Assembly: GCA_020833055.1 (NCBI GenBank)
Contig: JAJHQZ010000002.1
Coordinates: 1-64,000 of the forward strand
Source of the DNA: Candidatus Korarchaeum sp.
GTDB taxonomy: Archaea > Korarchaeota > Korarchaeia > Korarchaeales > Korarchaeaceae
Direction of reading: 5' to 3'
DNA: 64,000 bases
Shown here: one piece after another, positions 17,523 through 59,511 of the stretch
Position numbering within the stretch: position 1 is the first letter of the stretch
Layout of the letters: every line of letters begins with the position of its first letter
Notes under the pieces: model-generated
What the model was told of the DNA's origin: nothing
Databases searched by the model: none
The model's input: only the letters and a program-made list of their open reading frames with translations
Position numbers and translations under genes: made by a program

Positions 17523-18059
17523 TTATTTCCCGTAGACCCCCTCCCACATCTCCTCGAACTCACTCTCATATTTACTAGCTATCTCAGGATCCCATATGAT
17601 TATTAAGTTCTCATCGTTCTTCTTATCAGCCGATTCAGTGTAATTGAAGCTACCCGTAGCCACTACCTTGCCATCCACTACAGCGAACTTATTGTGCATT
17701 AAGTAGGGATTCTTATCCAATTTTACCTCAATTCCCGCCGCTCTGAGCCTCCCATACTGGCTATAACTTGACACCTGCTCACTCTCAATTATCACTCTGA
17801 CGATTACTCCTCTCTCCTTAGCCCTTATCAGGGCATCCGCTATGCCCTCATGCGTGAATGAGTACATAGCGACGTCAACGCTCCTATTGGCTCTATCGAT
17901 TAGGGAGATCACAGCGTTACCGCATGAGTCCTCTGGGCAGAAGTAGACATCTATTTGAGGATTTATTTGAGGATTTTGAGGACAAACCCTCGGTTGATTT
18001 ACAATAACATAGGCTAGAGCTATCAAGAGTATAACGATCAGAGCCCCCGATACCCTCAT
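17523..18059 (-). CDS. Exported phospholipase D-like nuclease
   Basis: A 178-residue PLD-superfamily protein of the Nuc type with a single HKD motif, HNKFAVVDGKVVATGSFN (HxKxxxxD then GSxN). Single-motif members dimerise to form the active site and usually act as phosphodiesterases or endonucleases. The start is set at the ATG at 18059, because MRVSGALIVILLIALAYVIV is a signal peptide or membrane anchor. Upstream in-frame codons to 18185 overlap the divergent gene and look non-coding. The mature domain is thus probably outside the cell or tethered to the membrane. Two Cys (CPQN, CPEDSCG) could form a disulfide. Only about 30 bases separate it from the divergent radical SAM gene. Confidence 0.8.
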   Translation of the reverse strand: MRVSGALIVILLIALAYVIVNQPRVCPQNPQINPQIDVYFCPEDSCGNAVISLIDRANRSVDVAMYSFTHEGIADALIRAKERGVIVRVIIESEQVSSYSQYGRLRAAGIEVKLDKNPYLMHNKFAVVDGKVVATGSFNYTESADKKNDENLIIIWDPEIASKYESEFEEMWEGVYGK

Positions 18060-18089
18060 CTCCTTTTTATCCACTGGATCAATATAATC

Positions 18090-18914
18090 GTGTTGAGGGT
18101 GCTGAAGCCCTTCGATCCCTGGAGGAGTGAGCTCTGCACGTGCCCTAGGAAGTACTCCCTCCACCCCTACACCGGTTGCACGCACTCCTGCCTCTACTGC
18201 TACGCCACATCTTACGTAGGCAGGAGGATAAGCAAGCCGAAGCTTGACTTCATCAAGATGCTCAAGAAGGACATATATGAGGCCGATCCAAGGATCCCAG
18301 TCGAGCTATCGACTAGCAGCGACCCTTATACACCTGAGGAGGCTGTCATAGGGATAACTAGGGCCTCCCTGAAGCTGCTGAAATCCAGGGGCTTTAAGGT
18401 GTTGATAACGACTAAGGGTACCTCATTCAAATACGATCAGGATTTATTTGACGCTGTTATGGTCACTATAACTACTCTAGACGATGAAATCTCCTCTAAA
18501 TTAGAGCCCAATGCCCCATCCCCCTCGGAGAGGCTGGAAGCACTCTCCCAGGTGGAGAGGCGGAAGGGAGTGAGGATAGATCCGATAATACCAAAGATAA
18601 ATGATGATCTCGAGGATATAAGGGAGCTTCTTAGGGAGGCTAGGGATTGCGGTGCTGAGCATGTCGTCTTCTCGACTTACAAAGCCAAGCCGGACAACAT
18701 GAGGAGGATGCTGAACGCCTTCCCCGAGTTAGCTGAGCTCAATTTCACCGAGCGTATCGGCGGTTACAAGTACTTGGAGAGGGGCCTCAGGTACAAGTTG
18801 CTCAAGGGGGCTGTCGAGGAAGCATTGAAGCTGGGGATGACTGCTTCAGTCTGCAGGGAGGGATTCACAGATCTCATGAGGTCGAGTTCTTGTGACGGGA
18901 CCCATATGCTATGA
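18090..18914 (+). CDS. Radical SAM protein, SplB-like
   Basis: A 274-residue radical SAM enzyme of the spore photoproduct lyase-like (SplB/Rv2578c-type) group. The cluster motif CTHSCLYC is at Cys30, Cys34 and Cys37 and is preceded by YSLHPYTG, typical of this group. ELSTSSDPYTPEE and LITTKG are further conserved segments. Members outside spore formers have no established substrate; nucleic acid repair has been suggested. The GTG at 18090 is used because the N-terminus FDPWRSELC fits relatives. The 3' end overlaps the convergent carboxypeptidase gene by 6 bases. Confidence 0.85.
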   Translation: MLRVLKPFDPWRSELCTCPRKYSLHPYTGCTHSCLYCYATSYVGRRISKPKLDFIKMLKKDIYEADPRIPVELSTSSDPYTPEEAVIGITRASLKLLKSRGFKVLITTKGTSFKYDQDLFDAVMVTITTLDDEISSKLEPNAPSPSERLEALSQVERRKGVRIDPIIPKINDDLEDIRELLREARDCGAEHVVFSTYKAKPDNMRRMLNAFPELAELNFTERIGGYKYLERGLRYKLLKGAVEEALKLGMTASVCREGFTDLMRSSSCDGTHML

Positions 18915-20384: not shown

Positions 20385-21134
20385 TTAAAATTCTATCGAG
20401 AGCTTCCCCTCCCTCCTCAACCTGTCTATCTCCTTCATCACTTCATTAGGCGTTACACCGAGCTCCCTCGAGAACTTCAGTAGATCTAGCTTAGTTTCAC
20501 CCGCTTTAAGGTAGCCAGATAGGATAGAGCCCTTCAACGCTTCCTGATCCACGACTTTCACCTTTATACGAGCTCCGGATGGGAGCTTGGGCATCATTAT
20601 TAAGTAATTCTCTATCGCTACAGCTACGGATATGACGGCCCCTATGAAGAGAGAAGTGGCCCTCAGGTCGGGCGGTATGTAGTACTGCAGGATGATCGTC
20701 ATCAGGTATGTGAAGAGGAATATCGCTGTCCCTATCAATATAGAGCTGAGGATAGCTGCTCTAACTCTCCTCCTCCCTATGATATCGAGCTGATCCATCA
20801 ATATCCTCCCGTAGATATCCTGTCCAGGTAAGCCTCCGAGGAAGATACGCCTCACTTCCTCCCTATCCCCTTTCATCAATATCCCCTCGAGTTTATCCTT
20901 ATCAATATCGACCCCTCTGGCCCTGAGGACAGTAGCTATAGCTGTCAAGCAACTATCGGCTTCCCCTCCCAAGGAATCCTTGAGAGCCCGGATGAACTCA
21001 CTGGGGTCATTGAGTAAGACTGAGGAGGGCTCGGCCCCCAGTCTCCTCATCAAGAGACCCCTTATCCTCTCATAACTCCCACTACCCAGGGATTCTAGGG
21101 CCAACCTCAATATATCCTCAACCATAAAACTCAC
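20385..21134 (-). CDS. Membrane protein with a winged-helix-like tail, last gene of the surface operon
   Basis: Not recognised as a known family. The 249-residue protein has a helical cytosolic N-terminal region (1-125), two strong transmembrane helices (about 129-151 and 160-178, AAILSSILIGTAIFLFTYLM being the first) and a C-terminal cytosolic region ending in LGVTPNEVMKEIDRLRREGK, which looks like a winged-helix or helix-turn-helix motif. Its start overlaps the stop of the 2547-residue surface protein by 4 bases, so it is cotranslated. It could be an assembly partner or a membrane-bound sensor for the surface complex; that is inference from position. Confidence 0.7.
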   Translation of the reverse strand: MSFMVEDILRLALESLGSGSYERIRGLLMRRLGAEPSSVLLNDPSEFIRALKDSLGGEADSCLTAIATVLRARGVDIDKDKLEGILMKGDREEVRRIFLGGLPGQDIYGRILMDQLDIIGRRRVRAAILSSILIGTAIFLFTYLMTIILQYYIPPDLRATSLFIGAVISVAVAIENYLIMMPKLPSGARIKVKVVDQEALKGSILSGYLKAGETKLDLLKFSRELGVTPNEVMKEIDRLRREGKLSIEF

Positions 21135-24100
21135 CTCCCATAGAGCATTTCCGAGAGGAGATCCGTATCCAGCCTGGATGCGAGGGATCTAGCCAGGAAT
21201 CTCTCTACTATCTCCGGATCGGGAGATAGAGAGAGGGCATTAGCTATCTCCTCGCTCGAGGATGGATATACGTTGAAATGTACTCTCTGAATCGCGTTGA
21301 ACAACTCAGTATCTGCCATGACTCTCAAGAGGGTTACGTCAGTCATAGCGAATCTGAACATACTGGAAGCCCTCGGAAGGAGGCCCCTAGTATATAAGGA
21401 GCTCAGTATATCGTAATCGACCACTACTTCACTCTCCCTCCTCCTGAGGAGGAAGATAGCGAGGATGAAGGGGAACCCGAGCGTCATCAGGAACGGGATC
21501 CCTGTCCTGAGCACTACTGGGCTTCCTAGAGATATATTCCCGATCTCAGTAGTAGTTTTGATTGGTGTAGTTTTGGTCGTCTCAGTCCTGACTGTTTCAG
21601 TCGCGACTTGCGTAGTAGTCATCTGAGTCGCAGTTGTCGGCGGTGCTGTGACCTCGGCCCCCCGGGGAGTCGTAGTGAGCGTCTTATTCGTAGTGAGCGT
21701 CTTAGTTGTTGGCATAGGGATTGTCGTGATCGCAGCCCCCCTCTCGCAGCACACCCTTTGAGAGAGGTGAGCGGTGGCTAAGTAATAACCTGAGGCTATC
21801 TCCTCGAGCGGGACCATCACTCCACTCACACTGGGCACTATCGTGAAGCTAGCGTTCGAATAATAGACGGGAACTCCGCTAACTGTCTCGCTGTAATAGG
21901 AGGACTCATATCCCTCTCCAGGCCTCAGAATTACATTGGGCGTCTCGCAAGCCAATATGGGTCCAGATTGCGACCTCATTATGCATATCCTAGTCAAGTT
22001 GTAGATGAGCTCCTTAGCCCCATTCCTGAACGATGCCCTGACCCTAACTGAGCTTCCATTCATCTCCTTCGTAACTTCGACGGATGCATCGCTCACCCCT
22101 CTCAACGCCCTCAACTTCCCCGAGAGAGATGTGCTAGGATAAGCGAACTCAACGGCTAGGGTATAGTTTCGACAACCGATATTACCTACTCTGAAGGTCC
22201 TGCTGACTCTTTCCCCTCTCTTCATGCTACCGATTCTCCAGATATCTCCGAAACCCCTTATCGTCACGTTATCTATATCATCCAACGCTGATACCTCTAT
22301 CGTAGTGCCGCAATTGAAGTCCGTCCCGCGTATCCTCAGCGGAACTCTGGCCTCGGATGGGGGCCCCTCGTACCTCCACCTCACGTAGCTCCCCGGAGGG
22401 AGCCATTGATAGGTTAACGGGGGGCTCAGAGGCGTGCTGGATGGAAGGGGATAATCCAAGTAGAATGTGTAGCCAGGGGCATCGATATCCAGTGCTAAAT
22501 TTGAGATAACATCGGGGGATGAGTTGTTAATCGTTAAGAATCCCCAGAGCCTGCTGACCGCATAGCTACCGTCTGGATTGAATGAGAGGGATGCGAACTC
22601 CCTTATCTCTACGCTCAAGCCCAGGGGATCTACGCCTACGTTGAAAGCATCGATCAAGTTGTAATCACCTGAGAAGGAGAGAGTCAGATAGACGTGCTTC
22701 GTCTCACCTGCATCTATCTGATCGAATGACCACCAGTAAACATCACCGCTAGAACCATAGGAATCATAATCCCCGCTCATAGAGGCTATATCCACGTTTT
22801 TCGGCTTTATCCAGTAAGCTATGATATTGTACTGCTTCAATCCGTGAGCTGTTACATTTAGGACAGCGGAGCTCCCGGATACTCTTATGGAAGCGGATAC
22901 GTTCCTCCTGCATACGACGTGGAAATCCGGGCCGAACTCGGATGTCCCATTCAGAGTGGCTGTGGCTGTTATCAGGGAACCGCAGTCAACTTGAGGGGCA
23001 GCCAAGGCTCCCTCGAACCTCCCATCGCTACCGGCGGAGAGCCTCCCGAGCCATATCCAGCCCTCACCGTACTTATCTGGGAGAGTCCCGCCTAAGGAGA
23101 GATCGTTTCCTGTCAGATTATCTCCTTTCGTCGAGTTCCTGACTAAGTAGATGTCCACGATGGAGTTCGCGAAAGTTGAGCTTGGGCCCGTTCCAATATA
23201 CCCACTCAGCTGAAGGGTGCTGCCGTAAAGGATAGCTGAGGTTATGACGGGATAATCCATCCCCTTGTTCGGCTGATTCGCTGATAGAGCTCCATCGTTG
23301 AGTGATACATCATCCCCATTCGGGTTGCCGGATATATCGAGGTCTATCCCTACCCTCGAGTTATTGAATATGCTGTTCCTCGTTATATTAGCTACGGAAG
23401 TTCCCTGAACGATTACCCCTATCTGATTCCCGTAGATCACGTTCTTCTCTATTAAAGCCTTAGTGTAGCTCGAGAGGACGCTGATACCCCACCTCGAATT
23501 ATTCACTATCGTATTGTTCAGCACTAGATTCAATCCGGAGCTCTGCTCCGGGACCCAGACGATCAACTCTACACCCGCTCCTCCATCTATCGTTGATGTG
23601 TTGCCATCATTCCTATTCCTCTCAATGAAATTGTGGATGACTTTATTACCGTTAGTCTGGAGGCTTATCCCATCCCCGATGTTATAGCCAGCTCCGCACT
23701 CCCTCACCCAGTTATCCTCTATCGTGGCATTGGCTATGTTCCCGCTGTTAACGACAATTCCGTAAAGACCCGAGATCACTATATTATGCCTTATGAAAGC
23801 TGATAAATTGCTGGAGATTGTTGAAGTCGAGTATTTGCCCACGCTTATCCCGAAGATCACCTTTAGGGAGTTCGATCCATTCGCGTATGCTCCTATGAAG
23901 TTATCCCTTATCGTATATCTGTTATTGCTCCCCCTGACGATTATAGCGTAAGGCGCGTTGTATATACTGAAGCCCTCTATCTGAGCTCTACTAGCGCTCG
24001 CATTGAATACCTCGTAGCCATTGCCATCCACCTCTATCCTAGGGGTCTCGAAGTCTGGGATCCTGTGGTTATCGAGGCCAACGTACTTACCTTCCACGAA

Positions 24101-27100
24101 TCCGTGAGCTCCTGATTGAGTCTTAGCCGTTAGGTTGACATCATCAGTCATCTGAGGAAGATTCGAGGAGAGCTTTATCCTCCATACGTCTATAAGGGAT
24201 GAGCCCAAGCTCTCCTGCAAATAATTGGGATCGCTCTTAGGTATGAGGAAGTAGCTCTTCTGCATCCCCGCTACGGCATTCGAGTTCATTATGAACTGTC
24301 TTAAGCAGCCTTGGCATGTCCTAATCCCTGGATCATCATCAGCATCCCTAGTGTTCACTATCACCTCATAGCTGAACCCGAAGTCGAGGCTCTCCCCCAT
24401 GTAATTGCTGGTAGCTATCGTAGTTATGTGCTCGCACCTATCTGGGATACGCCAGAGGGCTAAAGTATCTATGTAGTAAGTGGCATCCCCCTGAACTAAC
24501 ACTCTGTCGAAGCTATTGTAATTTGTATCAGTTCCACTCACCTGGGCAAGCAGGTTGCCATCTGTATCATAAAGCCTGAATATTATCGTGTTGTTAGTTA
24601 AGAGTATGAGCTTCCAGAAGTACCAACTCCCATCGGGAGGATTGTAATTATATGTAGATATCGCGGTCGCAGCTCCATTTGTCCTGCGGACTATCTGAAT
24701 TCTATTATTCCTGTGATCGATGATGAAACCGTAGCCATTGTAATTGCTATCGACTAGGCTGACGCTGACCCTACTCCTCACCCCTATCGGTGTGGGCCTG
24801 AAAGCATAGCCTTGGAGGATGTAGCCCCTCCCTATAGTAGCCCCTATGAGCTTGTATCCACCGTTTGGCTCGTTATTCGCATTCCTGACGAGGCTGTAGC
24901 TACCGTTGTAGAACTCAGCATTTGATTGAGCGACACTGCCTAAACGGTAATTGACCCATTCCTGCCAGACCTCGAAGTCATCCCTGAAAATCAAGCTGAG
25001 GCAGGAGTCACTTACTGTGGGATCCAGCCCTCCATATTTTGCTTTGCCAACGTAAGCGCTACCATTCCACTCGACCTGATATGTCTGCTCGGCCCAGGTC
25101 TCATCTATAGAGTGGCCCGAATTGAGCTCGGCTGTCAGGTTCTTCGAGTTAACGACCACGAAGTATCTGCCGTCTCGGATTGAGAAAGTGTAGGAGCCAT
25201 CGCTACCCGTCTTGCCCCAAGTGAATAAGGTATCATCGAGCGGGTTGAAGACATTATCTCCATTATCCTTAAAGGCATACACAAGAACATTACTCATAGG
25301 CCTATCCTCGCTGCCATAAGTAGCTAGAGGCTCCCTGTCCTCGAAAACTGTTCCTTTTACTGGCCCGAAATAGAAATATGTTTCATCTACATTGAAGAAG
25401 TCCGTGTAGTTGACTTCGAGAGGCCTCCCGGGTATGTGTATTAGCCCGGAGTAGCCTGGGTAGATTGAGGTAGAGGAATCGTTAGCTAGTACTATTACTC
25501 TCCACTTCCCGAATGGTGAGCCTTGCGAGAGCGTGTAAGCGTTAGCGTTAGTGTATATCCCATCGTTAGGAACAGCATCCCCATTCGTCCCATCATCGTA
25601 GAGTTGAGCTGTGGCCACTAGAGCACCTAGTGGATTGTATATCCTCGCTATTACGCTCGAGGGCTTCGCATCCACCTTAGCCTCCACTCTGACTGGACCA
25701 TAGAGGAGGGTACCCTTCGGGGAGGTGACATTCAGGCCGAAGCCCTCGACCATGTTGGAAGCTAGGGAGGATGTTAAATTCACGGGAGCCCACGTCAAGT
25801 TATCTATATAGGCCCAAGTCTTATAGAGATCATCAGTAAATGTGTGAACGAGGAAGTAAGCTCTCACTGTCTGACCGGCGTAAGGCGAGAGATCTAATGA
25901 AGCTGAGAGCCAGCCTGAGTCTGCAAATGGCCCATAATTATCCCCTGGATTTGGATTGTAGTTGTCCACTATAGTAGTGAGAGTACCCCCAGCAGTATCC
26001 CTGAGCTCGGCCCTGAAGTAATCGTAGTTTGCCGAGTCCCATGACTCAACTCTATACCAGAAGTAGAGCGTACCTCCATCAGCTGGCACGGTGAACTCGT
26101 AATAAGCCCAAGTATCCTCCCCAGTATCAGTATAATCCTCGCTCCCGCTCGGTGTCCTATAGCCTAGAACGAGGGAGTAGCCACCGAAAACTGGATTCCC
26201 ATCGTCTGTAATGTAGTTTGGAGTTCCGTATGGGTCGTAAACTGTGTAAGGGCCTGGGGGGCTCGCTTGTATTATCGATGATATAGTAGAGGGGTTCTTA
26301 CCGTAGGTCCAGTAATTGAGCGTACCCGAATCCAGGCCTGCATTCAGAGTATTCAGATATGGTTTTGCCCCGTTCTCAGTTATATCGAAGTATATGTAGA
26401 ATGTGGAGGGGCTCCCCAGATCTTTATGCAGGATGAACTTCACTCTTCCAATTCCGCTACCGAGCGGCACGAATTCCTGCTTAGGAACTAAGTTCCCCTG
26501 ATCATCCACCACCCTGACTGAGTTGGGATCGAATGTCCCGGTGACGTTGAGAAGCGATAATAGTTTATTGAAGTCCACATCCAACCATATCGTGTGATCC
26601 TTTCTGAGTGTGGGGAGCTGCAGGGGGACCCTGTAGTGCCAATCGTACCCCCTAGCTACGCCATCTGGATCCCACCAGGGCGGGACCCCATATAAAATGT
26701 AGTAATATCTGCTCGGGTCATCGTAGAATACCAGCTCGTTCCCCTTCTGGTACCACGCATCTATTACCCTCGTCCCATTCTCATCCTCTGCCAGAACTTC
26801 CTTCACTAAAGCCCCCTTGGGAAGCTCAACTGATACCCTAACCCACCCGCTTTTCTCCCCCAGTTCCACCAATATCTTTCCATCTGCTATCAATCTGCTC
26901 CTAACTTTTATCTCCTCAGCTTCTCCTACTTCCTCCTCCATCACGAATAGCCCGTTTTTGAGCTGGAACATCCCCTTTAAATTCTCGAAACTTTCCACCC
27001 TGTAGAATTTTACCTTCCATTTCTTCCCAGATCCCTTGGCTGAGATTTCTTTCACTATCTTCGGCTCCTTATACAGCTTAACCTCCTTTCTCATCTCCTT

Positions 27101-28774
27101 CTCAATGCTCTTATTGGCTTCTGAGCTCTTTGGGCGCAGTATCATATTGAAAAGTCCATTTGCAGTACCATCGGGATCATTAGGAGATCCATCCTCCAAT
27201 AGAAATTCCTGAACACCATCTGAAAATCTCGTCCTCAGGTGAAGTTGTTTCCCATCCTCACTGAATGCCTCCAGCTCCTCGGATCCATGGACTCTGAGTA
27301 TCGCCGTGAAATTGGTATGGGATCTGACGCTGACGTATATTCCGCTCTCAACCTTAGCGGCTTTTACGCATGAACCATTAGCCTCAAGCCTCAGGCCATC
27401 TAGGGAAGTCGAGGAGCAGTTTTTACTCAACCTCATCTCAGCATTCCCGCACTTCAATATGACTTCCTCAGAATCAGGAAGGTATATCCTGAAGCTACCG
27501 TTCATCACTCTGGATTCTCCGCTCAAGTTCGAGGGCAGAGCGAGGTAGCTGACCGAATTCGGCGCTATGGAGTAATAGCTGACCCTGCCCTCCACATAGT
27601 CACCGGTGAAGCTAGCATCTATCGAGTAGCTGTCCACGTAAAAGTTCCTCGAGGCTCCATTCAGTTCTACCGAATACTCACCTATCTCAACGTCCCCGAC
27701 CAGGGGATACTCATATATCCCCGGGGGGACTTCGGAATCTAGCAGAACCCTCCTGGTCGGGGACCTTATTATCAGGTTCCCTCCGGATGAGCATACCCTC
27801 AGCGTATCCCCCGGGAAGTAAACGTCCCTATCTGTAGATACACCCTTTATCTCGAAGGAGGATCTGAGGCCCCTCTCATCGTTTATAGTCACCTCAGCAG
27901 GTCCTCCGAGCTCTATGCTCCCATTGAATTGTGATGTAAAGTTCCAGAAGCAAGATTCCACAGTTATATTCCCCCTTATTGGCTCCCCGCTCAAGGCATC
28001 CTTAGCCCTTAGGCTCCCATTGGAGTAATCTATCTCTATACTCGTTACCACGAACTCCCTCTCGAGCGTTATATTGCCCATCTCCACTATCAAGCTGTAG
28101 TTACCGAGGGCTATGGGCTGAGGCAGTTTGAACCTCGAGGACCAGTGAGTGGAATTGACCCTCTCGAGATCCGGGATTATTGATGAGTTCAGGGGAGTTA
28201 TTATCTTCAGATAGGGCTTCTCATCTCCCCTTATAGTGATCTCGACATCATCTTGAGGCAGTAAGTATTCCCTCATATATATCTCAGGCAGATGTATATT
28301 TTTGGAAGCTCTAAGGCCCGAGAAATTCGCCTCTATATAGTAATCCCCTGGATCCGCTTTAAATGGAGATTTGTAAGGCTCACCGTTAACGGTTATCGAG
28401 GCATTGACCGGTCCGAGGAGCTCGGTCTTAGCTACCACTTCTATAACGTTGGGCTCCGGAGAGAGGACTTCTATATAGAGCTCGTCAAGCGTGAAGTTAG
28501 CTTCCGCTTCAAATCCATCGCATGAGTTCACTATCCTGTAGACGCCCGGCTTCAGGCCCGAAGTATTGACCTTGAGCTCTAAGTAATCTGAGCTCCCTTT
28601 GAAGAGCTGTACGCTCAAATTCTCCCCTAGGAGCTTAACATCGCAAGCTCGGAAGATCCTAACATTCAGGATATCCCCAGGGCTCAAGAGTCCCCTATCC
28701 AGTTGTATCTGGGGTATCGCATCTATTAAGAGGATTGGGATGAGAGAGATGAATAAAATTAGCGGGACCCGCAA
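21131..28774 (-). CDS. Giant 2547-residue membrane-anchored surface protein
   Basis: An exported protein with signal peptide LILFISLIPILLIDAIPQ. Residues about 30-690 are Ig-like beta sandwiches. A DUF2341-type domain starts near 698 (WWDPDGVARGYDWHYRVPL), with a MAM-like jelly roll near 810-995, a Cna-B/SdrD-like domain near 1135-1225 and a LamG-like domain near 1260-1445. A NosD-like parallel beta-helix (about 1560-1810) is followed by a module ending TATATLNGTSEFGP. The C-terminus has a Thr-rich stalk (about 2350-2410), one membrane helix (about 2420-2442) and a 105-residue cytosolic tail beginning VVVDYDIL. The start is TTG directly after the TAA of the upstream gene, whose last codons AGGAGGAGG may provide the ribosome site. 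A role in the cell envelope or adhesion is inferred. Confidence 0.85.
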   Translation of the reverse strand: MRVPLILFISLIPILLIDAIPQIQLDRGLLSPGDILNVRIFRACDVKLLGENLSVQLFKGSSDYLELKVNTSGLKPGVYRIVNSCDGFEAEANFTLDELYIEVLSPEPNVIEVVAKTELLGPVNASITVNGEPYKSPFKADPGDYYIEANFSGLRASKNIHLPEIYMREYLLPQDDVEITIRGDEKPYLKIITPLNSSIIPDLERVNSTHWSSRFKLPQPIALGNYSLIVEMGNITLEREFVVTSIEIDYSNGSLRAKDALSGEPIRGNITVESCFWNFTSQFNGSIELGGPAEVTINDERGLRSSFEIKGVSTDRDVYFPGDTLRVCSSGGNLIIRSPTRRVLLDSEVPPGIYEYPLVGDVEIGEYSVELNGASRNFYVDSYSIDASFTGDYVEGRVSYYSIAPNSVSYLALPSNLSGESRVMNGSFRIYLPDSEEVILKCGNAEMRLSKNCSSTSLDGLRLEANGSCVKAAKVESGIYVSVRSHTNFTAILRVHGSEELEAFSEDGKQLHLRTRFSDGVQEFLLEDGSPNDPDGTANGLFNMILRPKSSEANKSIEKEMRKEVKLYKEPKIVKEISAKGSGKKWKVKFYRVESFENLKGMFQLKNGLFVMEEEVGEAEEIKVRSRLIADGKILVELGEKSGWVRVSVELPKGALVKEVLAEDENGTRVIDAWYQKGNELVFYDDPSRYYYILYGVPPWWDPDGVARGYDWHYRVPLQLPTLRKDHTIWLDVDFNKLLSLLNVTGTFDPNSVRVVDDQGNLVPKQEFVPLGSGIGRVKFILHKDLGSPSTFYIYFDITENGAKPYLNTLNAGLDSGTLNYWTYGKNPSTISSIIQASPPGPYTVYDPYGTPNYITDDGNPVFGGYSLVLGYRTPSGSEDYTDTGEDTWAYYEFTVPADGGTLYFWYRVESWDSANYDYFRAELRDTAGGTLTTIVDNYNPNPGDNYGPFADSGWLSASLDLSPYAGQTVRAYFLVHTFTDDLYKTWAYIDNLTWAPVNLTSSLASNMVEGFGLNVTSPKGTLLYGPVRVEAKVDAKPSSVIARIYNPLGALVATAQLYDDGTNGDAVPNDGIYTNANAYTLSQGSPFGKWRVIVLANDSSTSIYPGYSGLIHIPGRPLEVNYTDFFNVDETYFYFGPVKGTVFEDREPLATYGSEDRPMSNVLVYAFKDNGDNVFNPLDDTLFTWGKTGSDGSYTFSIRDGRYFVVVNSKNLTAELNSGHSIDETWAEQTYQVEWNGSAYVGKAKYGGLDPTVSDSCLSLIFRDDFEVWQEWVNYRLGSVAQSNAEFYNGSYSLVRNANNEPNGGYKLIGATIGRGYILQGYAFRPTPIGVRSRVSVSLVDSNYNGYGFIIDHRNNRIQIVRRTNGAATAISTYNYNPPDGSWYFWKLILLTNNTIIFRLYDTDGNLLAQVSGTDTNYNSFDRVLVQGDATYYIDTLALWRIPDRCEHITTIATSNYMGESLDFGFSYEVIVNTRDADDDPGIRTCQGCLRQFIMNSNAVAGMQKSYFLIPKSDPNYLQESLGSSLIDVWRIKLSSNLPQMTDDVNLTAKTQSGAHGFVEGKYVGLDNHRIPDFETPRIEVDGNGYEVFNASASRAQIEGFSIYNAPYAIIVRGSNNRYTIRDNFIGAYANGSNSLKVIFGISVGKYSTSTISSNLSAFIRHNIVISGLYGIVVNSGNIANATIEDNWVRECGAGYNIGDGISLQTNGNKVIHNFIERNRNDGNTSTIDGGAGVELIVWVPEQSSGLNLVLNNTIVNNSRWGISVLSSYTKALIEKNVIYGNQIGVIVQGTSVANITRNSIFNNSRVGIDLDISGNPNGDDVSLNDGALSANQPNKGMDYPVITSAILYGSTLQLSGYIGTGPSSTFANSIVDIYLVRNSTKGDNLTGNDLSLGGTLPDKYGEGWIWLGRLSAGSDGRFEGALAAPQVDCGSLITATATLNGTSEFGPDFHVVCRRNVSASIRVSGSSAVLNVTAHGLKQYNIIAYWIKPKNVDIASMSGDYDSYGSSGDVYWWSFDQIDAGETKHVYLTLSFSGDYNLIDAFNVGVDPLGLSVEIREFASLSFNPDGSYAVSRLWGFLTINNSSPDVISNLALDIDAPGYTFYLDYPLPSSTPLSPPLTYQWLPPGSYVRWRYEGPPSEARVPLRIRGTDFNCGTTIEVSALDDIDNVTIRGFGDIWRIGSMKRGERVSRTFRVGNIGCRNYTLAVEFAYPSTSLSGKLRALRGVSDASVEVTKEMNGSSVRVRASFRNGAKELIYNLTRICIMRSQSGPILACETPNVILRPGEGYESSYYSETVSGVPVYYSNASFTIVPSVSGVMVPLEEIASGYYLATAHLSQRVCCERGAAITTIPMPTTKTLTTNKTLTTTPRGAEVTAPPTTATQMTTTQVATETVRTETTKTTPIKTTTEIGNISLGSPVVLRTGIPFLMTLGFPFILAIFLLRRRESEVVVDYDILSSLYTRGLLPRASSMFRFAMTDVTLLRVMADTELFNAIQRVHFNVYPSSSEEIANALSLSPDPEIVERFLARSLASRLDTDLLSEMLYGR

Positions 28775-29401
28775 TTACCTCCTCCTCATTAGGACTACAG
28801 CTACTATAGAAGCGGCTATTATTATCAGCCAGACTAAGGGGTACCATCTGACCCCTATGTTCGGGAGCGGGAGCGCTGAGACCTCTCCCTCTATATCTAT
28901 AGCTTCTCCCGGCTTCAGGGGCCTTCCCTCTCCCTTCAGGTAAACTATGTTCATCCCATTCGGGGGTATCACCCTGAGATCAACTTCCTCAACTTCGTAT
29001 GAGAAGGGCCCTATCCTCGCTTGGAACTCATCGAATATTATGCCTTTGCTCAGGAAATCCGATACCGTTACGTTGACTCTCACATTTATGGCCTTCCCTG
29101 GCTCTATTACCTCCCAAATCGAGTATCTTAAGTTGCTCCCGTTGACAATCACCTCAGTCTTCTTGCCATTGATTGAAGCTGATGCCTTCAATATCCTGCC
29201 GCTGTTGAACTCTAGGTAACCGTAGCCAGGCACCACTGGGACCCAGGCCCTGTTCTCTATCTCATAACTCAAGCTCATAGTGGCAGATCCGTCATCTCTC
29301 AAGGCTATTACCACCTCAGCTCTCTTGTAGATCAGCGGATCCTGAGCTGATAAGGGGAGCACTGAGAATAAAAGAAAGAGGATTATGGGGAGCGCTCTCA
29401 T
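28775..29401 (-). CDS. Membrane-anchored surface protein, second gene of the surface operon
   Basis: A 208-residue exported protein: signal peptide ALPIILFLLFSVLPLSAQ, a beta-rich extracellular domain (about 20-175), one C-terminal transmembrane helix (WYPLVWLIIIAASIVAVVLM) and a short basic cytosolic end RRR. No named family is recognised; the fold looks like a single immunoglobulin-like or transglutaminase-associated beta domain. The start overlaps the preceding gene by 4 bases, and its stop directly abuts the TTG of the giant protein gene. The tight coupling suggests it is a stoichiometric partner of the two flanking surface proteins, perhaps as a membrane base. Confidence 0.75.
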   Translation of the reverse strand: MRALPIILFLLFSVLPLSAQDPLIYKRAEVVIALRDDGSATMSLSYEIENRAWVPVVPGYGYLEFNSGRILKASASINGKKTEVIVNGSNLRYSIWEVIEPGKAINVRVNVTVSDFLSKGIIFDEFQARIGPFSYEVEEVDLRVIPPNGMNIVYLKGEGRPLKPGEAIDIEGEVSALPLPNIGVRWYPLVWLIIIAASIVAVVLMRRR

Positions 29402-31467
29402 CTCTTCCTCCTCGCTAAGACTCCGGCTATTGAAACTATTAAAGCTATCGCTAGTAAGAGGGGCTCCAGTGTCGAAGCCCCGAAGCCTATCTTGCTGTTC
29501 GGGGAGGATATCGCTATAGCATCCAATGTATTCCTCGGATCGACTCCGACTATGAACAAGTTCGTGGCGTTATAGACTCCAGACCCGCAGACCCTGTACT
29601 TCACGAATATGGGGTTGTAGACGTCCATATTGAGGTTCTCATAACTCCCCTTAGCTGAGACCACGACCCATCCGCCGCCGCTCGTCAAGTTATCATCAAC
29701 GTAAGCTACAGTGAAATCCGTAGCGCTGGGACCACTGCCCAAGGTGAAGCTGCTCCCCTCAGCGTAAGTAATGCCACCTATGTTAACGTTACTCCCATCC
29801 ACGGGATACACTGATAACGTTACCGTGCTCCCATCCACTAGCTTGAAATCTATGCTCTTAGCGTTACCTGAGCCAGTCCCCTTGAAGTAAGCTGCGAAAC
29901 CGTTCTGAGGGGCTGGAACTGGGTACGCTTTCCAGACGTAACCCCTGGAGTAGCCAGAGGGACTCGTTATCAAGCTGTAGTCTGGAGGGCTGCTTGGATC
30001 AGCGTCTACAGCTAGCATGCTGTGAGGCGTGAATATCATATTACCCTCGGTTCCAGCTGGATCCGGGCTGAAGCCATTCGGGACGACATCGTAGAACTCC
30101 AGATAGGGGGTCTCCCACTGACCCAAGTTCTCGAGAGATATTCCGAGGACGTAGCAGCTTGGAGATTCTGAGACGACCTCCTTCTTAGCTTTGACTAAGT
30201 AGCCCCTGACGGCCCATATCTCCTCGTAAACTCTATATTTGAGATCGCCGTTAGGCCAGACCGATGTGAAGTTGTTGTAGTTCCACCAGCCATTCAGCTG
30301 ATCGTTAGTTATCCTGAACTTGGCCAGGGCCCATATCTTGGGGATCCCGTTGTAAGTGAATGAGAATGGCCCGTAAGTGTAACTACCTCCGGGACTTAGC
30401 TGCGTTATGTTGAATACTTGCTGACTATTGAATGAGCCGGATATAGCTGGGCTCGGAGTGTTGCCTTCTGTAGCCCATACTGTAGTATTGAATAGATCAT
30501 ATTTGAATTTAGCGCTAGTATCGTAGAATACGAGCGTCTCCTTCCATTGGTTAGGATTCGTTGTATCCTGCTCCTTCTTTGCCTCAACGCTAGCATCTCC
30601 CACAGCGAATACCTTACCTATCGTGAGGCCCGTGAATGTCCTCTCAGCCTTCAAATAGATATAGACCGTACCTAGCGTTATCTTCTGAGTTTCCCCGCCG
30701 ACTTCACTCAAAGCAGGCGTTCCCGTTATGGAGAAAGTGGAGTTCCCATGTCCTCCAGCTGCTAGGGTGAACCAACCGTCCGGCCAGCTGCCGTCGTTTG
30801 TCCAGTAGAGCTCCTTGGAGTCGCTGGAGTAGCTTATGCCCCCCACGTTCGTCGATGGAGTTCCCGAAAATGCCGGGTTATTTGGGATGTTACTCCAGCC
30901 CTCAACTCCATTATCGGCTGGCAGGACCTTCCTGACCTTGACATCCACATCGAAAGCAAAGTTGTTAGTTATGTTCAGCTTCACATTCACAGTCGAGCTC
31001 ACGCCATCCACTATCTTGAGCGGGTCGTACCTCTCCTCCACTAGTATCGGAGCGCATCCACTCCCGGTATAGGTGTACTTCAGCGTCACATTATCCCCGC
31101 TCCTGAGCTGGGTTATGTGCCAGAATTCATTAGCTCCTGAATTATCAGCCTGAACGTAGCTCGGAGGACTGCCTCTACTCACATTGGCATAGCCAGGTTT
31201 ATAATGAAGCGATATCGTTAGTCCGCTCGGCTTGTTTATCGGAATCCAGATATCTGAGACGGTCTCCCCAGTATTGTTATTCTTAACTATTATGTAGCCC
31301 GTGACGTTCCAGGGGCCGCACAAATAACCGAAGCCCTCCGTAGATATAGTTGCATTGACGTACTCATTCACGATTATTGGTAGAGGGGTCTCCGCTGCTC
31401 TGAGATCCGGAGCCTGTAGGGTGAGTAGGACCAGCAGGAGCATGGCTACCGACAACTTTTCAATCAT
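29398..31467 (-). CDS. Surface (S-layer-like) protein, first gene of the surface operon
   Basis: A 689-residue exported protein with signal peptide KLSVAMLLLVLLTLQAPDLRA, a long Asn/Thr/Ser/Gly-rich extracellular region and a C-terminal membrane helix (LEPLLLAIALIVSIAGVLA) ending ARRKR. Many Asn-x-Ser/Thr sequons (for example NNNTG, NVT, NIT) suggest N-glycosylation. Repeated beta domains resemble DUF11-like and S-layer folds, but no specific family is claimed. The start is ATG with a strong ribosome site GGGAGGT and a TATA-like box 37-48 nt upstream. It is first in the operon and would be the most expressed, which fits a major surface component. Confidence 0.8.
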   Translation of the reverse strand: MIEKLSVAMLLLVLLTLQAPDLRAAETPLPIIVNEYVNATISTEGFGYLCGPWNVTGYIIVKNNNTGETVSDIWIPINKPSGLTISLHYKPGYANVSRGSPPSYVQADNSGANEFWHITQLRSGDNVTLKYTYTGSGCAPILVEERYDPLKIVDGVSSTVNVKLNITNNFAFDVDVKVRKVLPADNGVEGWSNIPNNPAFSGTPSTNVGGISYSSDSKELYWTNDGSWPDGWFTLAAGGHGNSTFSITGTPALSEVGGETQKITLGTVYIYLKAERTFTGLTIGKVFAVGDASVEAKKEQDTTNPNQWKETLVFYDTSAKFKYDLFNTTVWATEGNTPSPAISGSFNSQQVFNITQLSPGGSYTYGPFSFTYNGIPKIWALAKFRITNDQLNGWWNYNNFTSVWPNGDLKYRVYEEIWAVRGYLVKAKKEVVSESPSCYVLGISLENLGQWETPYLEFYDVVPNGFSPDPAGTEGNMIFTPHSMLAVDADPSSPPDYSLITSPSGYSRGYVWKAYPVPAPQNGFAAYFKGTGSGNAKSIDFKLVDGSTVTLSVYPVDGSNVNIGGITYAEGSSFTLGSGPSATDFTVAYVDDNLTSGGGWVVVSAKGSYENLNMDVYNPIFVKYRVCGSGVYNATNLFIVGVDPRNTLDAIAISSPNSKIGFGASTLEPLLLAIALIVSIAGVLARRKR

Positions 31468-54129: not shown

Positions 54130-55728
54130 ATGCGGTTCTCGAAGGTAGTAGATGCCGAGGAAGCCCTCTCCAAGATAAGGGATGGTTCAGTCATAGCGAT
54201 CTCGGGATTCAACATAGCGACGACTCCAGAGTACTTGATAGTCAAGTTATGGGAGCTCTATGAGAGGACAGGTCATCCTAAGGATCTCTTCATACTAACG
54301 GACACTCTACCGGCGGTGCCCGATAGGGGGCTCGATCTCATAGGGAAGAAGATGCATGAGACTGGGGATAGGGAGTTCGTGAGGGGTATGCTCTTGACTT
54401 ACCTCGGATGGGCCCCTTGGCTCCAGAGACTGACGGCTGAGAATGTTATAGAGATGTACACTTGGCCCATAGGCACTGCTAGTTGCTGGTTCAGGGAAGT
54501 AGCATCCGGGAGGCCAGGTGTGATCACTAGAGTCGGGTTGAGAACTTCCCTAGACCCTAGGGACGATGGCTGCTATCTCAACGATCTAGCTAGGGAGAGG
54601 AGGACTTGTAGTAACAGTCTGATAGAGATAGATGGGAGGGAGTACTTGCTCTATAGAGCGCCTAAGCCCGAAGTAGCTTTGATAAGGGCCACTACTTCAG
54701 ATGAGCTCGGGAACCTCTCTATGGAGAGAGAAGGTATATTCGGCACTGTCCTAGCTATTTCTCAAGCCGCTAAATCTTGCGGAGGTATTGTCATAGCTCA
54801 AGTTGAAAGGTTAGCGAAATTCGGATCTATTAAGCCTAAGGAAGTCCATGTACCAGCTCCTCTCGTGGATCACGTAGTAGTGGCTCCCGAGGAATATCAT
54901 TGGCAGACTTGCTCCTTCCGTTACGATCCTAGGATAAGCGGTGAGATAGTGCCACCTAGAGCTTCTCACACTCCCCTTGAGCTCAGTGAGAGGAAGGTCA
55001 TAGCTAGGAGAGTAGCTCTTGAGCTCTTCTACTTAGCTAAGAAGTTGGATAGGCCCCTATTCGTCAACTTCGGGATAGGGATACCCGCCCTCACGCCCTC
55101 AGTAATAGAGGAGGAGGGGCTCTCAGAGATACTACTGACCAGTATAGAAGCCGGGCCGCTGGGGGGAGTGGCGTTAACTGAAGCTGACTTCGGGGTCTCT
55201 ATAGGGCCTTTCGCTATAATGCAGATGCCGGATATGTTCGCGAATTATGAGGGCGGCATAATAGATGCTTCCTCACTTGGCTTCATGGAAGTAGACGCTG
55301 ATGGCAACGTCAACCCTTCATTCATCCCGGGCAGGATAACAGGTCCCGGTGGCTTTCCCGTGATAGTAACTGGCTCCCCAAGGCTTTACTTCGCCGGTGG
55401 ATTCACTGCGGGCAAGAGGAAGTTCAAGATAGGGAATGGGGAGCTCAGAATCGAACAAGATGGGGATGTGAGGAAGTTCGTTAGGAGAGTATACAAAGTG
55501 GCTTTCAACGGGAAGTTAGCTTTAGAGGAGGGGAAGGAGGTCTTATACATAACTGAGAGAGCTGTGTTTAGGCTGAGCGAGAGGGGATTGTCGCTAGAGG
55601 AGATAGCGCCTGGCGTGGATCTGGATAAGGATATCTTAAACAAGATGGACTTCCAGCCCCAGATGGGGAAGCTCGAGGAGATGGATAGGAGGATATTCAG
55701 GGAGGGAAAAATGAACATAGAGTTATGA
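54130..55728 (+). CDS. Class I CoA transferase (fused alpha-beta, acetate/propionate type)
   Basis: A 532-residue CoA transferase with the two subunit-like halves fused. The N-terminal half starts KVVDAEEALSKIRDGSVIAI and has a glycine-rich segment. The C-terminal half carries the active-site Glu340 in SIEAGPLGG, followed by the GGIIDASSLGFMEVDADGNV region. Such enzymes move CoA between acyl donors and acetate, propionate or 3-ketoacids. In a peptide-fermenting anaerobe this could help recover acyl-CoA or release acids. The strong ribosome site GGGGAGG precedes the ATG. The 3' end overlaps the convergent surface-protein gene by 6 bases. Confidence 0.88.
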   Translation: MRFSKVVDAEEALSKIRDGSVIAISGFNIATTPEYLIVKLWELYERTGHPKDLFILTDTLPAVPDRGLDLIGKKMHETGDREFVRGMLLTYLGWAPWLQRLTAENVIEMYTWPIGTASCWFREVASGRPGVITRVGLRTSLDPRDDGCYLNDLARERRTCSNSLIEIDGREYLLYRAPKPEVALIRATTSDELGNLSMEREGIFGTVLAISQAAKSCGGIVIAQVERLAKFGSIKPKEVHVPAPLVDHVVVAPEEYHWQTCSFRYDPRISGEIVPPRASHTPLELSERKVIARRVALELFYLAKKLDRPLFVNFGIGIPALTPSVIEEEGLSEILLTSIEAGPLGGVALTEADFGVSIGPFAIMQMPDMFANYEGGIIDASSLGFMEVDADGNVNPSFIPGRITGPGGFPVIVTGSPRLYFAGGFTAGKRKFKIGNGELRIEQDGDVRKFVRRVYKVAFNGKLALEEGKEVLYITERAVFRLSERGLSLEEIAPGVDLDKDILNKMDFQPQMGKLEEMDRRIFREGKMNIEL

Positions 55729-58700
55729 TGGGATATTCATCTCTAATGACAGAGGCTTACCTTCCTTAACGAATTTCACCTTCAATCCCTTCTCCTTTAA
55801 CTTCTTGAATGCCTCCTCGTCACCTAGGTAAGCGAAAGTCCCCCTCCTCTGTGCGAGGCTCACCACTGCCGCTACTTCATCATCGAAACCCTCTATCGAT
55901 ACATCGCTCAATACCCTCTCCACTTTCAGGGATCTCCCTATTAGATATTTCTCCAGGGCCCTCATCAATCTCTGATCCTTGCTCACCTTGTTGAAGGTCT
56001 CCTGAGGTACGTAGATATCGTACCTCCTCACTAAGTCCTCTATCATCCCCCTCTCCACAGCCCTCCTCAGGGAGTTGTAATCCATCACTATAGCCTCCCT
56101 CCCCCTCCTCTTGTAAGCTAGCACTATAGGTATAGCCAGTAGAGGGAGCAGGAATATCCATATTGGGATCTGAGGGAGCTTTATCTCAAGAGATGGACCC
56201 ATTACCATCTGTTTAGCCTCAAACTTTATTGTAACACTCTTCTGTTTCCCGAAATCTGGTAAGAAGACGTTCACCTCACCTGAATTCACATCATCGCTAC
56301 TAGGCTCGACGTTGAAAGTTATCACAGCCTTTCCTCCCTTTGATATGCTTATCAACCAGCTCAAGCTGCTCTCCTTCACATCGGTCTTAGCGGGCATATC
56401 AGCGAGCTTAGCGCTATTGGGCACGTACTTGAGGGAGTTCAAGTTAGCGACTATCCTCACTGATTTCGCTCCCGTCGGGCTAGTGAGAGTTATCGTTACT
56501 GTCCCCACCCTACCGGAGGAGGAGCCAGATACATCCAGCTCCACGACCTCAGGGACTTGCTGAGGTTGAGGTTGGGGAGCTGCCACTTCCTTGGGCTTAA
56601 CAGATATGATTACGCTATCGCTAGCAGTAGCAGCAGTCGCCACTACATTGAAGCTCCCGGCTGTCGCTATCAGTTTCGCTAGGAAGCTTATCTCCAAGCT
56701 GCTCTTCCGATCCAGCTTGCTTATCTTCCACTTGAGCACATTCATATCGTTCTTCGGTTCCACTTTGACTCCACCGAGCTTCGAGCTCCCGCTCACGTAA
56801 TCCAGCCCTGGGGTGAGGTCTACCTGGACCTCGAGCCCCTCATAAGCCCCCTCCCCTATATTGCTCACGTTGACTAAGAAGGCTATATTGCTCCCCGTCT
56901 CCGCTTTAGTTGGGGATGCGGATATATCGACTGTTATTAGAGCTAAAGCGTTTCCAGAGGTCACGGGCTGGACCCCGGAGCTGGATCCGGAGCTCCCTGA
57001 TTGATAGCTCTCTAGCTTAACCCCCTGAGATCCTAGGGAGACGAGGACTATGGGTATCCCGTTGAAGACATAATCGTTGGAGCTCGGCTTACTCGGAGTG
57101 GCAGGTGGAGTTGAAGTGGGAGGAGGTATGTAGCCGCAGGATGGTGATCCTCCGGAGCCTCCTGAACCCCCGGAACCTCCTGAATGTCCTCCTGAACCTC
57201 CCGATGGGGGATTCGTAACTATTACTGATGCCGATGCTGAGAGCGTCCCATTAACGTAGACCCTGTTATCCTTCCTCCCCTCGCTCAATGCCCTGAGCTT
57301 GTATGAAGCTACTAATGAGCTCCTCGGGGCTAAAGTAACGTTGAACTTTATCTCTCCTCCGGATATATCGAGATCCAAGCTGACGTTAGAGGAGAAGCTC
57401 CCACTCACATAGCTCATACCTGTGGGTATAGTATCCCTCACCGATATGAATGCGGGTAGGTCTCCCGAGTTCCCTATCCTCAGCTCATAGCTGACCTCAT
57501 CACCCACCCTCACGCTAGTTGGGGAGGCGATCTTACTCACCTTTATTACGGGGGGAGATATCACGCTAACATCAGCCGAGCTGTTCCCTGAGCCGTCTTC
57601 CGAACTGAAGAAAGCTACATTCTCGAGGTGAGATCCTGGGGGAGCGGTTATGCTTACATTAAATTCTAGGAACATTATACTCCCTGCAGGTACATTGAGG
57701 ATCCAGCTCAACTCGCTCCCATTGACCCTAGGCTCCAAAGAGCTACCGTTCAACTTAGCTGTCCCGCTTATGTAACTCATGCCATCGGGGAGTGGGTCTA
57801 TTATCGATACGTTGTAGGCCGTCCCGTTTCCCCTGTTCGCGATTATTAAGGTGACCTTGGCTGAGGAGCCTGGAGTGACTATGGATGGCTCTATCAACTT
57901 CTCCACGCTTATGTTCGTTGATAGGGATGGTGCGAATATATTTGGCCCGAACTCAGAGGTACCATGAGGCATCAACGTCGCTGTTGATGTTATGTTCATT
58001 CCCTTGCCTCTCAAATCATCAGGAAGATCTATCCATCCCAGGAACTCCCCGTTCAAAGCCCTGAGGCTCCCCAGATACCTTAAGCCCTCCCCGTATCCGC
58101 TCTCATGATTCGTGGATAGGTATATCTCTACCTCAGATCCGCTGAAAGCTGGGCTCCCGGATCCACTTCCCTCGGAATTTATGTAGCCCCTCACCAGCAA
58201 TCTGTCCCCGTATACAGCTGCCCATGTCAACACAGGATAATCCATGAAATCGTTCGGGCCCTCAGTCAACTTTCCATCGTTTCTAGTGACATAATCCCCT
58301 CCTAGATCTATCCCCAGCAGGGTGTTGTTGTAGCAAGAGAGCTTAGTGAAAACGTTGCCGATGGAGGAGTTCCCCTCCACGACTATACCGCTGTATATGT
58401 TATCGTGGATCCTCGTCCCATTTAGCAGATTCCCACTGGACTCTGAGATGAGGACTCCGAACCTATTATGACTTGACTCTCCAATCAGCTTATTTTCCCC
58501 TCCGTTCTGTATCCATATACCGTAGATACTGCCTTCAGTTGAGCCGTCTATAGAGTTCCCCCTGCTCTGGTATATGTAAACTCCGGAGAAGGTGTTATTG
58601 ACTAAGGATGCCCTAACAGAGTTATTGGAGCTGTATATTATCGCTACTCCATAAACGTTATCCTTAGCGCTCACGTTCTCAAGCTTATTGTTATCGGATC

Positions 58701-59511
58701 CCTGGTAAATGTAGAAACCGTAGCTATCGACGCCCAGCGCAGTATTGTTATCAGCTCTCGAGTTCAATATAATGTTCCCAGTGGATCTCTGTAAGTATAC
58801 ACCGTACCATCCGTTCCTCTCAGCCTCTATACCGCTGAGATTGTTATTATTTGAGTACTTGAGGAGTAAGCCTCCCTCAGAGTTCCCCTCTATCCTAGCA
58901 TCCATTAACCTGGAGTCAGAGCTCAGGAGGGAGAGGAAGCCTATCCTATTCCCCCTCAGTCTCAGATCCGAGAAGGAGCATGCCACACTGCTCTCAAAGT
59001 TCACTCCAGCATTAATGTTGTTCTCCGAGATCAGATCGCTCACATTTATGCTTGAGCTCGATACTATGTTGATCCCGAAGTAGTTTCCAGTCGCTATTAT
59101 GTTCCTGAGGGAGCTCTCGCTCGTGTAATAGACGTATATACCGCTCTGCTGAGATCCTATCGCGCCCCTGACAGTTAAATTGCTTATCATTACATTCCTA
59201 GTATTGCTCACTTCTATTACATGCTTAGTCGTATTGTAAGCTTCTAATACGACTGAAGAGGGATCACTCACTCCGGAGATGCTTAAGCTCTTCGTCACCC
59301 TCACGTTATCTCTGTAGGTCCCGGGGCATATCTTCACGACATCCCCTGGGTTCGCGCTCGAGATAGCTGAGCTCAAGCTCGTGAAGTAAGCATCACCGGA
59401 AGTGCACGGGCTACCTGTATGAACTACTATCGTCCTGGATGGAGCTGAGAGAATTGAGTTAGCTTGTAAGAGTATTAGTACCATGAGCAGGGAAAGATAC
59501 GCTCTCCTCAT
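55723..59511 (-). CDS. 1262-residue surface protein with beta-helix, DUF11 domains, anchor and PIN-like cytosolic tail
   Basis: An exported protein: signal peptide AYLSLLMVLILLQANSILSA, NosD-like beta-helix (about 30-440, with many N-x-S/T sites), the same beta-helix-associated module as in the giant protein (ends TSEFGP), and three DUF11-type domains (about 535-640, 650-760, 855-950). A Gly/Ser-rich linker with GGSGGHSGGSGG (about 767-800) lies between the second and third. The C-terminus has a membrane helix (about 1115-1135) and then a 124-residue cytosolic domain that reads like a PIN fold: Asp1144 in VMDYNSL, Glu1171, Asp1210/Asp1211 before a helix and Asp1231 in YLGDEEAF. If real, that would link a surface protein to a nuclease-like domain inside the cell. 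Confidence 0.8.
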   Translation of the reverse strand: MRRAYLSLLMVLILLQANSILSAPSRTIVVHTGSPCTSGDAYFTSLSSAISSANPGDVVKICPGTYRDNVRVTKSLSISGVSDPSSVVLEAYNTTKHVIEVSNTRNVMISNLTVRGAIGSQQSGIYVYYTSESSLRNIIATGNYFGINIVSSSSINVSDLISENNINAGVNFESSVACSFSDLRLRGNRIGFLSLLSSDSRLMDARIEGNSEGGLLLKYSNNNNLSGIEAERNGWYGVYLQRSTGNIILNSRADNNTALGVDSYGFYIYQGSDNNKLENVSAKDNVYGVAIIYSSNNSVRASLVNNTFSGVYIYQSRGNSIDGSTEGSIYGIWIQNGGENKLIGESSHNRFGVLISESSGNLLNGTRIHDNIYSGIVVEGNSSIGNVFTKLSCYNNTLLGIDLGGDYVTRNDGKLTEGPNDFMDYPVLTWAAVYGDRLLVRGYINSEGSGSGSPAFSGSEVEIYLSTNHESGYGEGLRYLGSLRALNGEFLGWIDLPDDLRGKGMNITSTATLMPHGTSEFGPNIFAPSLSTNISVEKLIEPSIVTPGSSAKVTLIIANRGNGTAYNVSIIDPLPDGMSYISGTAKLNGSSLEPRVNGSELSWILNVPAGSIMFLEFNVSITAPPGSHLENVAFFSSEDGSGNSSADVSVISPPVIKVSKIASPTSVRVGDEVSYELRIGNSGDLPAFISVRDTIPTGMSYVSGSFSSNVSLDLDISGGEIKFNVTLAPRSSLVASYKLRALSEGRKDNRVYVNGTLSASASVIVTNPPSGGSGGHSGGSGGSGGSGGSPSCGYIPPPTSTPPATPSKPSSNDYVFNGIPIVLVSLGSQGVKLESYQSGSSGSSSGVQPVTSGNALALITVDISASPTKAETGSNIAFLVNVSNIGEGAYEGLEVQVDLTPGLDYVSGSSKLGGVKVEPKNDMNVLKWKISKLDRKSSLEISFLAKLIATAGSFNVVATAATASDSVIISVKPKEVAAPQPQPQQVPEVVELDVSGSSSGRVGTVTITLTSPTGAKSVRIVANLNSLKYVPNSAKLADMPAKTDVKESSLSWLISISKGGKAVITFNVEPSSDDVNSGEVNVFLPDFGKQKSVTIKFEAKQMVMGPSLEIKLPQIPIWIFLLPLLAIPIVLAYKRRGREAIVMDYNSLRRAVERGMIEDLVRRYDIYVPQETFNKVSKDQRLMRALEKYLIGRSLKVERVLSDVSIEGFDDEVAAVVSLAQRRGTFAYLGDEEAFKKLKEKGLKVKFVKEGKPLSLEMNIPS

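Follow-up and report, generated by a model that had tools for sequence, protein, structure and literature searches.

The surface protein gene and its orthologs

The window, that is the whole stretch of 64,000 nucleotides analysed here, harbors on its minus strand a gene (55723-59511) for a surface protein of 1262 aa, in which a signal peptide, a beta-helix, DUF11 repeats, a membrane helix and a PIN-like tail are read as one open reading frame. The N-terminal hydrophobic signal occupies residues 1-24 (59440-59511, minus strand; hydropathy peak at 3-24), and a right-handed beta-helix region at about residues 91-325 (58537-59241, minus strand) was recognized in the Pfam scan by PF13229 (4.5e-22) and PF05048 (1.6e-20) together with PF12708. 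DUF11-type repeats are located at about residues 534-964 (56620-57912, minus strand), where PF01345 matched in three stretches (1.1e-24) and TIGR01451 was also found. Hydropathy places a single membrane helix at residues ~1112-1133 (56113-56178, minus strand), which is succeeded by KRRGR, consistent with the positive-inside rule, and residues 1135-1262 (55726-56109, minus strand) constitute the cytosolic tail, which is assigned below to a degenerate PIN domain. The order of signal peptide, beta-helix, DUF11 domains and one membrane helix had been proposed in the initial annotation of this DNA and is confirmed by hydropathy and Pfam. All 23 N-glycosylation sequons precede the membrane helix and none lies in the tail, a distribution which agrees with an outside-in layout of the protein.

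The gene is flanked by a convergent CoA-transferase gene, which is retained beside nearly all orthologs, and by a divergent topoisomerase gene, and an antitoxin-like small gene of the kind found in VapBC pairs is absent from the adjoining positions. Twelve further genomes of the genus contain orthologs of 1258-1320 aa, with a second, shorter-framed copy in one of them, and the set used for the tail comprises 14 sequences from 13 of the 16 genomes of the genus.

Fold and catalytic site of the tail

Pfam and NCBIfam scans of the C-terminal tail (~120 residues) returned no match, the DUF3368 PIN family (PF11848) at its Pfam cut-off included, and Pfam scans of all members of the tail family gave no PIN match except one at E 0.093. 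A phmmer search of the tail against the PDB was weak and mixed, the PIN structure 1o4w (E 0.084) appearing alongside unrelated matches. The AlphaFold2 model built on the 14-ortholog alignment (pLDDT 86, pTM 0.81), from a method whose training included PIN structures, displays the element order beta-alpha-alpha-beta-alpha-alpha-beta-alpha-beta-alpha-beta, which is the PIN order and agrees with the secondary structure proposed initially. Comparison of the model with the PDB by Foldseek revealed PIN domains as nearly all of the best 50 matches listed, led by the archaeal SSO1118 (2mdt; E 5.9e-4, TM 0.70/0.74), with VapC, PAE2754, Nob1 and Utp23 (4mj7) among the further PIN matches.

A profile built from 19 tails of the phylum (A4) was searched against 394 genomes, and its weak matches outside the phylum include small stand-alone PIN proteins of unrelated archaea; all eight of the small proteins checked exceed the cut-off of a Pfam PIN-clan family (PIN, PIN_6 or DUF3368). 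Against the PDB, the tail profile matched Nob1 (2lcq, E 0.004). The hhalign scores between the tail profile and PIN sets were 36-45, compared with shuffled-column means of about 12, where the control for the larger PIN set contained one or two outliers of 200 (score ~133) and the other two controls contained 0 of 200. The predicted PIN fold of the tail, which places it in the PIN domain-like superfamily, is well supported because AlphaFold2, Foldseek, the independent sequence-only profile and hhalign point to it alike. The initial reading of the tail as a PIN fold is thus borne out, by the top structural matches of the model, by the retrieval of PIN proteins with a sequence profile, and by profile-profile scores beyond those of the shuffled controls. 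Weak profile matches to MUT7-C-like small proteins were not counted as evidence, since MUT7-C is reported to have no significant structural similarity to PIN (PMC11347159).

A catalytic PIN ribonuclease is characterized by an acidic tetrad (Asp, Glu, Asp, Asp), which the tail does not carry. In the ortholog alignment, D1144 (56080-56082, minus strand), the canonical site 1, is invariant. Profile alignment puts the catalytic VxxE Glu of PIN domains in the column of K1175 (55987-55989, minus strand), which is Lys in all 14 orthologs, and not in that of E1171, which stands one helical turn ahead of the catalytic position and is replaced by Q or K in two of the 14. Site 3 falls on V1213 (V/I/L), right after a partly conserved acidic cluster at 1210-1212, where a register uncertainty of one to three residues is possible, and this cluster beside site 3 may provide a weak or unusual metal site. 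D1231 (55819-55821, minus strand), the canonical site 4, varies among D, N, E and R. The conservation ranks of E1171 and D1231 across the orthologs are 49 and 104 of 128, respectively; D1144, Y1145, T1172, K1175 and D1179 are invariant, and D1144, T1172 and D1179 remain so across the wider tail family of the phylum.

The initial annotation had considered all four acids of a PIN site to be filled, and had suggested that the tail may be active or a sensor derived from a nuclease. The residues that it named, D1144, E1171, D1210, D1211 and D1231, are all present at their positions; the filled site is contradicted by K1175 in the Glu column, V1213 at site 3 and the variable D1231. Among the acidic positions compared in the 14 orthologs, the variation of E1171 and D1231 counts against the proposal and the invariance of D1144 does not. 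The active-nuclease reading is unsupported because only one of the four catalytic positions is intact and constant, the other three being lost or variable, and the sensor alternative comes close to the reading favoured by the evidence. Meanwhile, the dN/dS of the tail is ~0.16 and 0.30 in two pairs, which indicates purifying selection, and its conservation is approximately equal to that of the ectodomain. Loss of the site together with purifying selection characterizes the tail as neither decaying nor active; judged by its sequence, it is a catalytically degenerate PIN domain, a conserved pseudo-nuclease.

The tail family, its gene cassette and a second phylum

Related tails, collected with A4 from the 394 genomes, terminate 17 other surface proteins of the phylum, most of which are giant (up to ~3300 aa), while some are short as open frames, in at least one case through truncation by a contig end (G022). 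One of the 17 is encoded in the window, where the gene for a giant surface protein of 2547 aa lies at 21131-28774 on the minus strand. By BLAST, this giant is paralogous to the 1262-aa protein in the beta-helix region (residues 1739-1970 against 332-551, 35%, 1.5e-20) and in the tail (residues 2426-2497 against 1119-1188, E 0.002 in the direct comparison), and the giant tail was matched at 3.9e-25 in the own-genome profile search with a profile (A3) that included this very tail. The shortened PIN-like tail of the giant (21134-21445, minus strand) was modelled by AlphaFold2 with pLDDT 92 and pTM 0.84, without the last strands of the PIN domain, and its top four Foldseek matches are all PIN. The strand VVVDYDIL, whose similarity to the first strand of the 1262-aa tail had been pointed out initially, is indeed present, and the two tails are homologous according to the same BLAST match. 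In G021, the tail of a 1808-aa frame (L049) is longer and by eye resembles a DUF3368-type PIN domain, and the next gene is a different two-TM gene with no clear winged helix.

The giant gene is part of a four-gene cassette on the minus strand (20385-31467). The cassette begins with a 689-aa surface protein (29398-31467), which is followed by a 208-aa secreted or TM-anchored protein (28775-29401), the giant itself, and a two-TM membrane protein (20385-21134) that ends in a winged-helix-like domain and whose gene overlaps the stop of the giant gene by 4 nt. The winged-helix call is weak for the window copy (GntR, E 0.1); HTH_24 is above the cut-off in one relative, and MarR_2/GntR match at ~1e-4 in another. 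A profile of this membrane winged-helix (wHTH) protein gave 15 strong matches in the phylum, and each of the 15 shares its strand with a PIN-tail gene and lies immediately 3' of it. Viewed from the tail family, 15 of the 17 genes are succeeded by the two-TM winged-helix gene, those of G021 and G016:C4 being without this partner. The four-gene order is kept in a distant family of the phylum (G026) and in genomes with unrelated flanks, and the small second gene was undetected in the cassette of G018. For the 1262-aa gene, no linked partner was found: none of the 14 orthologs adjoins a wHTH gene. G003, G008 and G014 are among the genomes that contain this gene and no wHTH match, so a signal there, if any, would require a different partner. 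Near the giant cassette, a Phospholipase-D-family protein with an N-terminal anchor is encoded at 17523-18185 on the minus strand.

In a second archaeal phylum (29 genomes), surface proteins were also found in which a single membrane helix is followed by a basic stop and a PIN-like tail, and profile comparison linked their tails to the present tails and to PIN proteins. Their ectodomains differ, consisting of Cys-rich repeats, CarboxypepD-reg and Big domains, and the PIN sites of their tails are mostly degenerate as well. One surface protein of this phylum (L093/L104, G401:C234) carries two tandem PIN-like tails, both of which keep Glu at site 2 and may for this reason be nearer to an active ancestor. 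PLD-like genes come after PIN-tail genes at two loci of the second phylum (L083, L101).

Proposed role of the tail and related systems

In our judgement, the tail of this membrane-anchored surface protein is probably a module for docking or signalling in the cytosol, made from a dead PIN domain, and not an RNase. The metal-binding site was lost in the lineage, with Lys in place of the catalytic Glu, a hydrophobic site 3 and a drifting site 4, while D1144, T1172, K1175 and D1179 were retained around the former pocket, and the tail would hold a partner, a protein or possibly a nucleic acid, at the membrane below the surface structure. In the giant paralogs, the gene order suggests that the tails contact the co-encoded membrane winged-helix protein, through which a signal might pass from the outside to DNA, and the stand-alone 1262-aa protein may use its tail likewise with an unlinked partner. 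If the winged-helix protein is the partner of the giants, the cassette would be an outside-to-DNA signalling device. A wider proposal, which we hold tentatively and regard as rather doubtful on balance, is that such signalling would be new to description, with the pseudo-PIN tail of the giants controlling the co-encoded membrane winged-helix regulator, the 1262-aa protein representing the tail family in stand-alone form, and the second phylum sharing the same design of surface region, TM and pseudo-PIN tail. The initial annotation had envisaged a link from surface events to RNA; the link found here is instead the membrane winged-helix, and so probably DNA-binding, partner of the giant paralogs.

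A tail without any signal, which acts solely as a structural anchor that blocks pull-through or spaces the surface stalks through a PIN-PIN dimer, is unlikely. It would suit a tail conserved to about the same extent as the ectodomain, the occurrence of the same kind of tail under different ectodomains, and a 1262-aa gene with no linked partner; several genomes hold this gene with no wHTH match, so its tail might have a structural role. However, the phylum-wide retention of the pocket residues D1144, T1172 and D1179 exceeds what a simple anchor requires, and the giant paralogs are nearly always paired with the membrane wHTH protein.

Two further explanations would direct the tail toward RNA. 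That it is a membrane-tethered, RNA-binding dead PIN domain which positions transcripts or ribosomes beneath the surface layer we consider improbable: basic residues slightly outnumber acidic ones in the tail (27 K/R against 21 D/E), and yeast Utp23, a degenerate PIN protein, functions with the snR30 snoRNP (PMC5416842), whereas the partner found for the paralogs has a wHTH, a fold that typically binds DNA. An active PIN ribonuclease tethered to the membrane, which would cleave RNA upon surface events, is highly improbable. The PIN fold, the invariant D1144, the acidic cluster 1210-1212 near site 3 and the D1231 present in the source species would be compatible with such an enzyme, but Lys stands at the catalytic Glu position in 14 of 14 orthologs, site 3 aligns with V/I/L, site 4 is N, E or R in most orthologs, and the gene has no antitoxin-like neighbour.

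Bacterial YacL-type PIN-TRAM proteins are membrane-tethered PIN proteins with multiple TM segments and a TRAM domain, and they have no giant extracellular region. The tethering of a PIN domain to the membrane is common to them and the 1262-aa protein, which differs in its large surface region and one TM. With VapC, DUF3368 and SSO1118-like PIN proteins, the tail shares the predicted fold, the element order, the first-strand Asp and similarity at the profile level; unlike them, it has Lys for the catalytic Glu, has lost or variable sites 3 and 4, is fused behind the membrane helix of a surface protein, and is encoded without an antitoxin neighbour. Utp23 (4mj7) resembles the tail in possessing a PIN fold whose catalytic site is lost and in being used for interactions, yet it is a soluble ribosome-assembly factor of the nucleolus that lacks any membrane or surface part.

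No description of surface-TM-PIN proteins was found in the literature searched, whose scope did not include the main PIN classification paper. The PIN superfamily is known; what appears to be new is its use as the tail of a surface protein whose gene is linked to one for a membrane winged-helix protein. It is poorly known how archaea report from the surface to the interior, and giant surface proteins of uncultured phyla are usually annotated merely as repeats. The pairing of a membrane winged-helix protein with a conserved pseudo-enzyme tail offers a concrete, testable handle, and the tails show that two archaeal phyla have put a nuclease fold to new use at the end of membrane surface proteins.

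The haloarchaeal regulator TbsP carries its own DNA-binding domain. Its TbsP_N domain (PF19138) was considered as the true family of the tails and is retained as a lead, only two of 19 tails matching and both under the cut-off; the best score was 21.3 bits against a cut-off of 27.1 (E 3.1e-4), with part of the domain covered. A TbsP_N search of 61 genomes gave one weak match of 19.4 bits, which is itself a tail. The weak, partial matches come from one tail group, represented by L047 of G004, and may reflect a shared sensor domain or chance.
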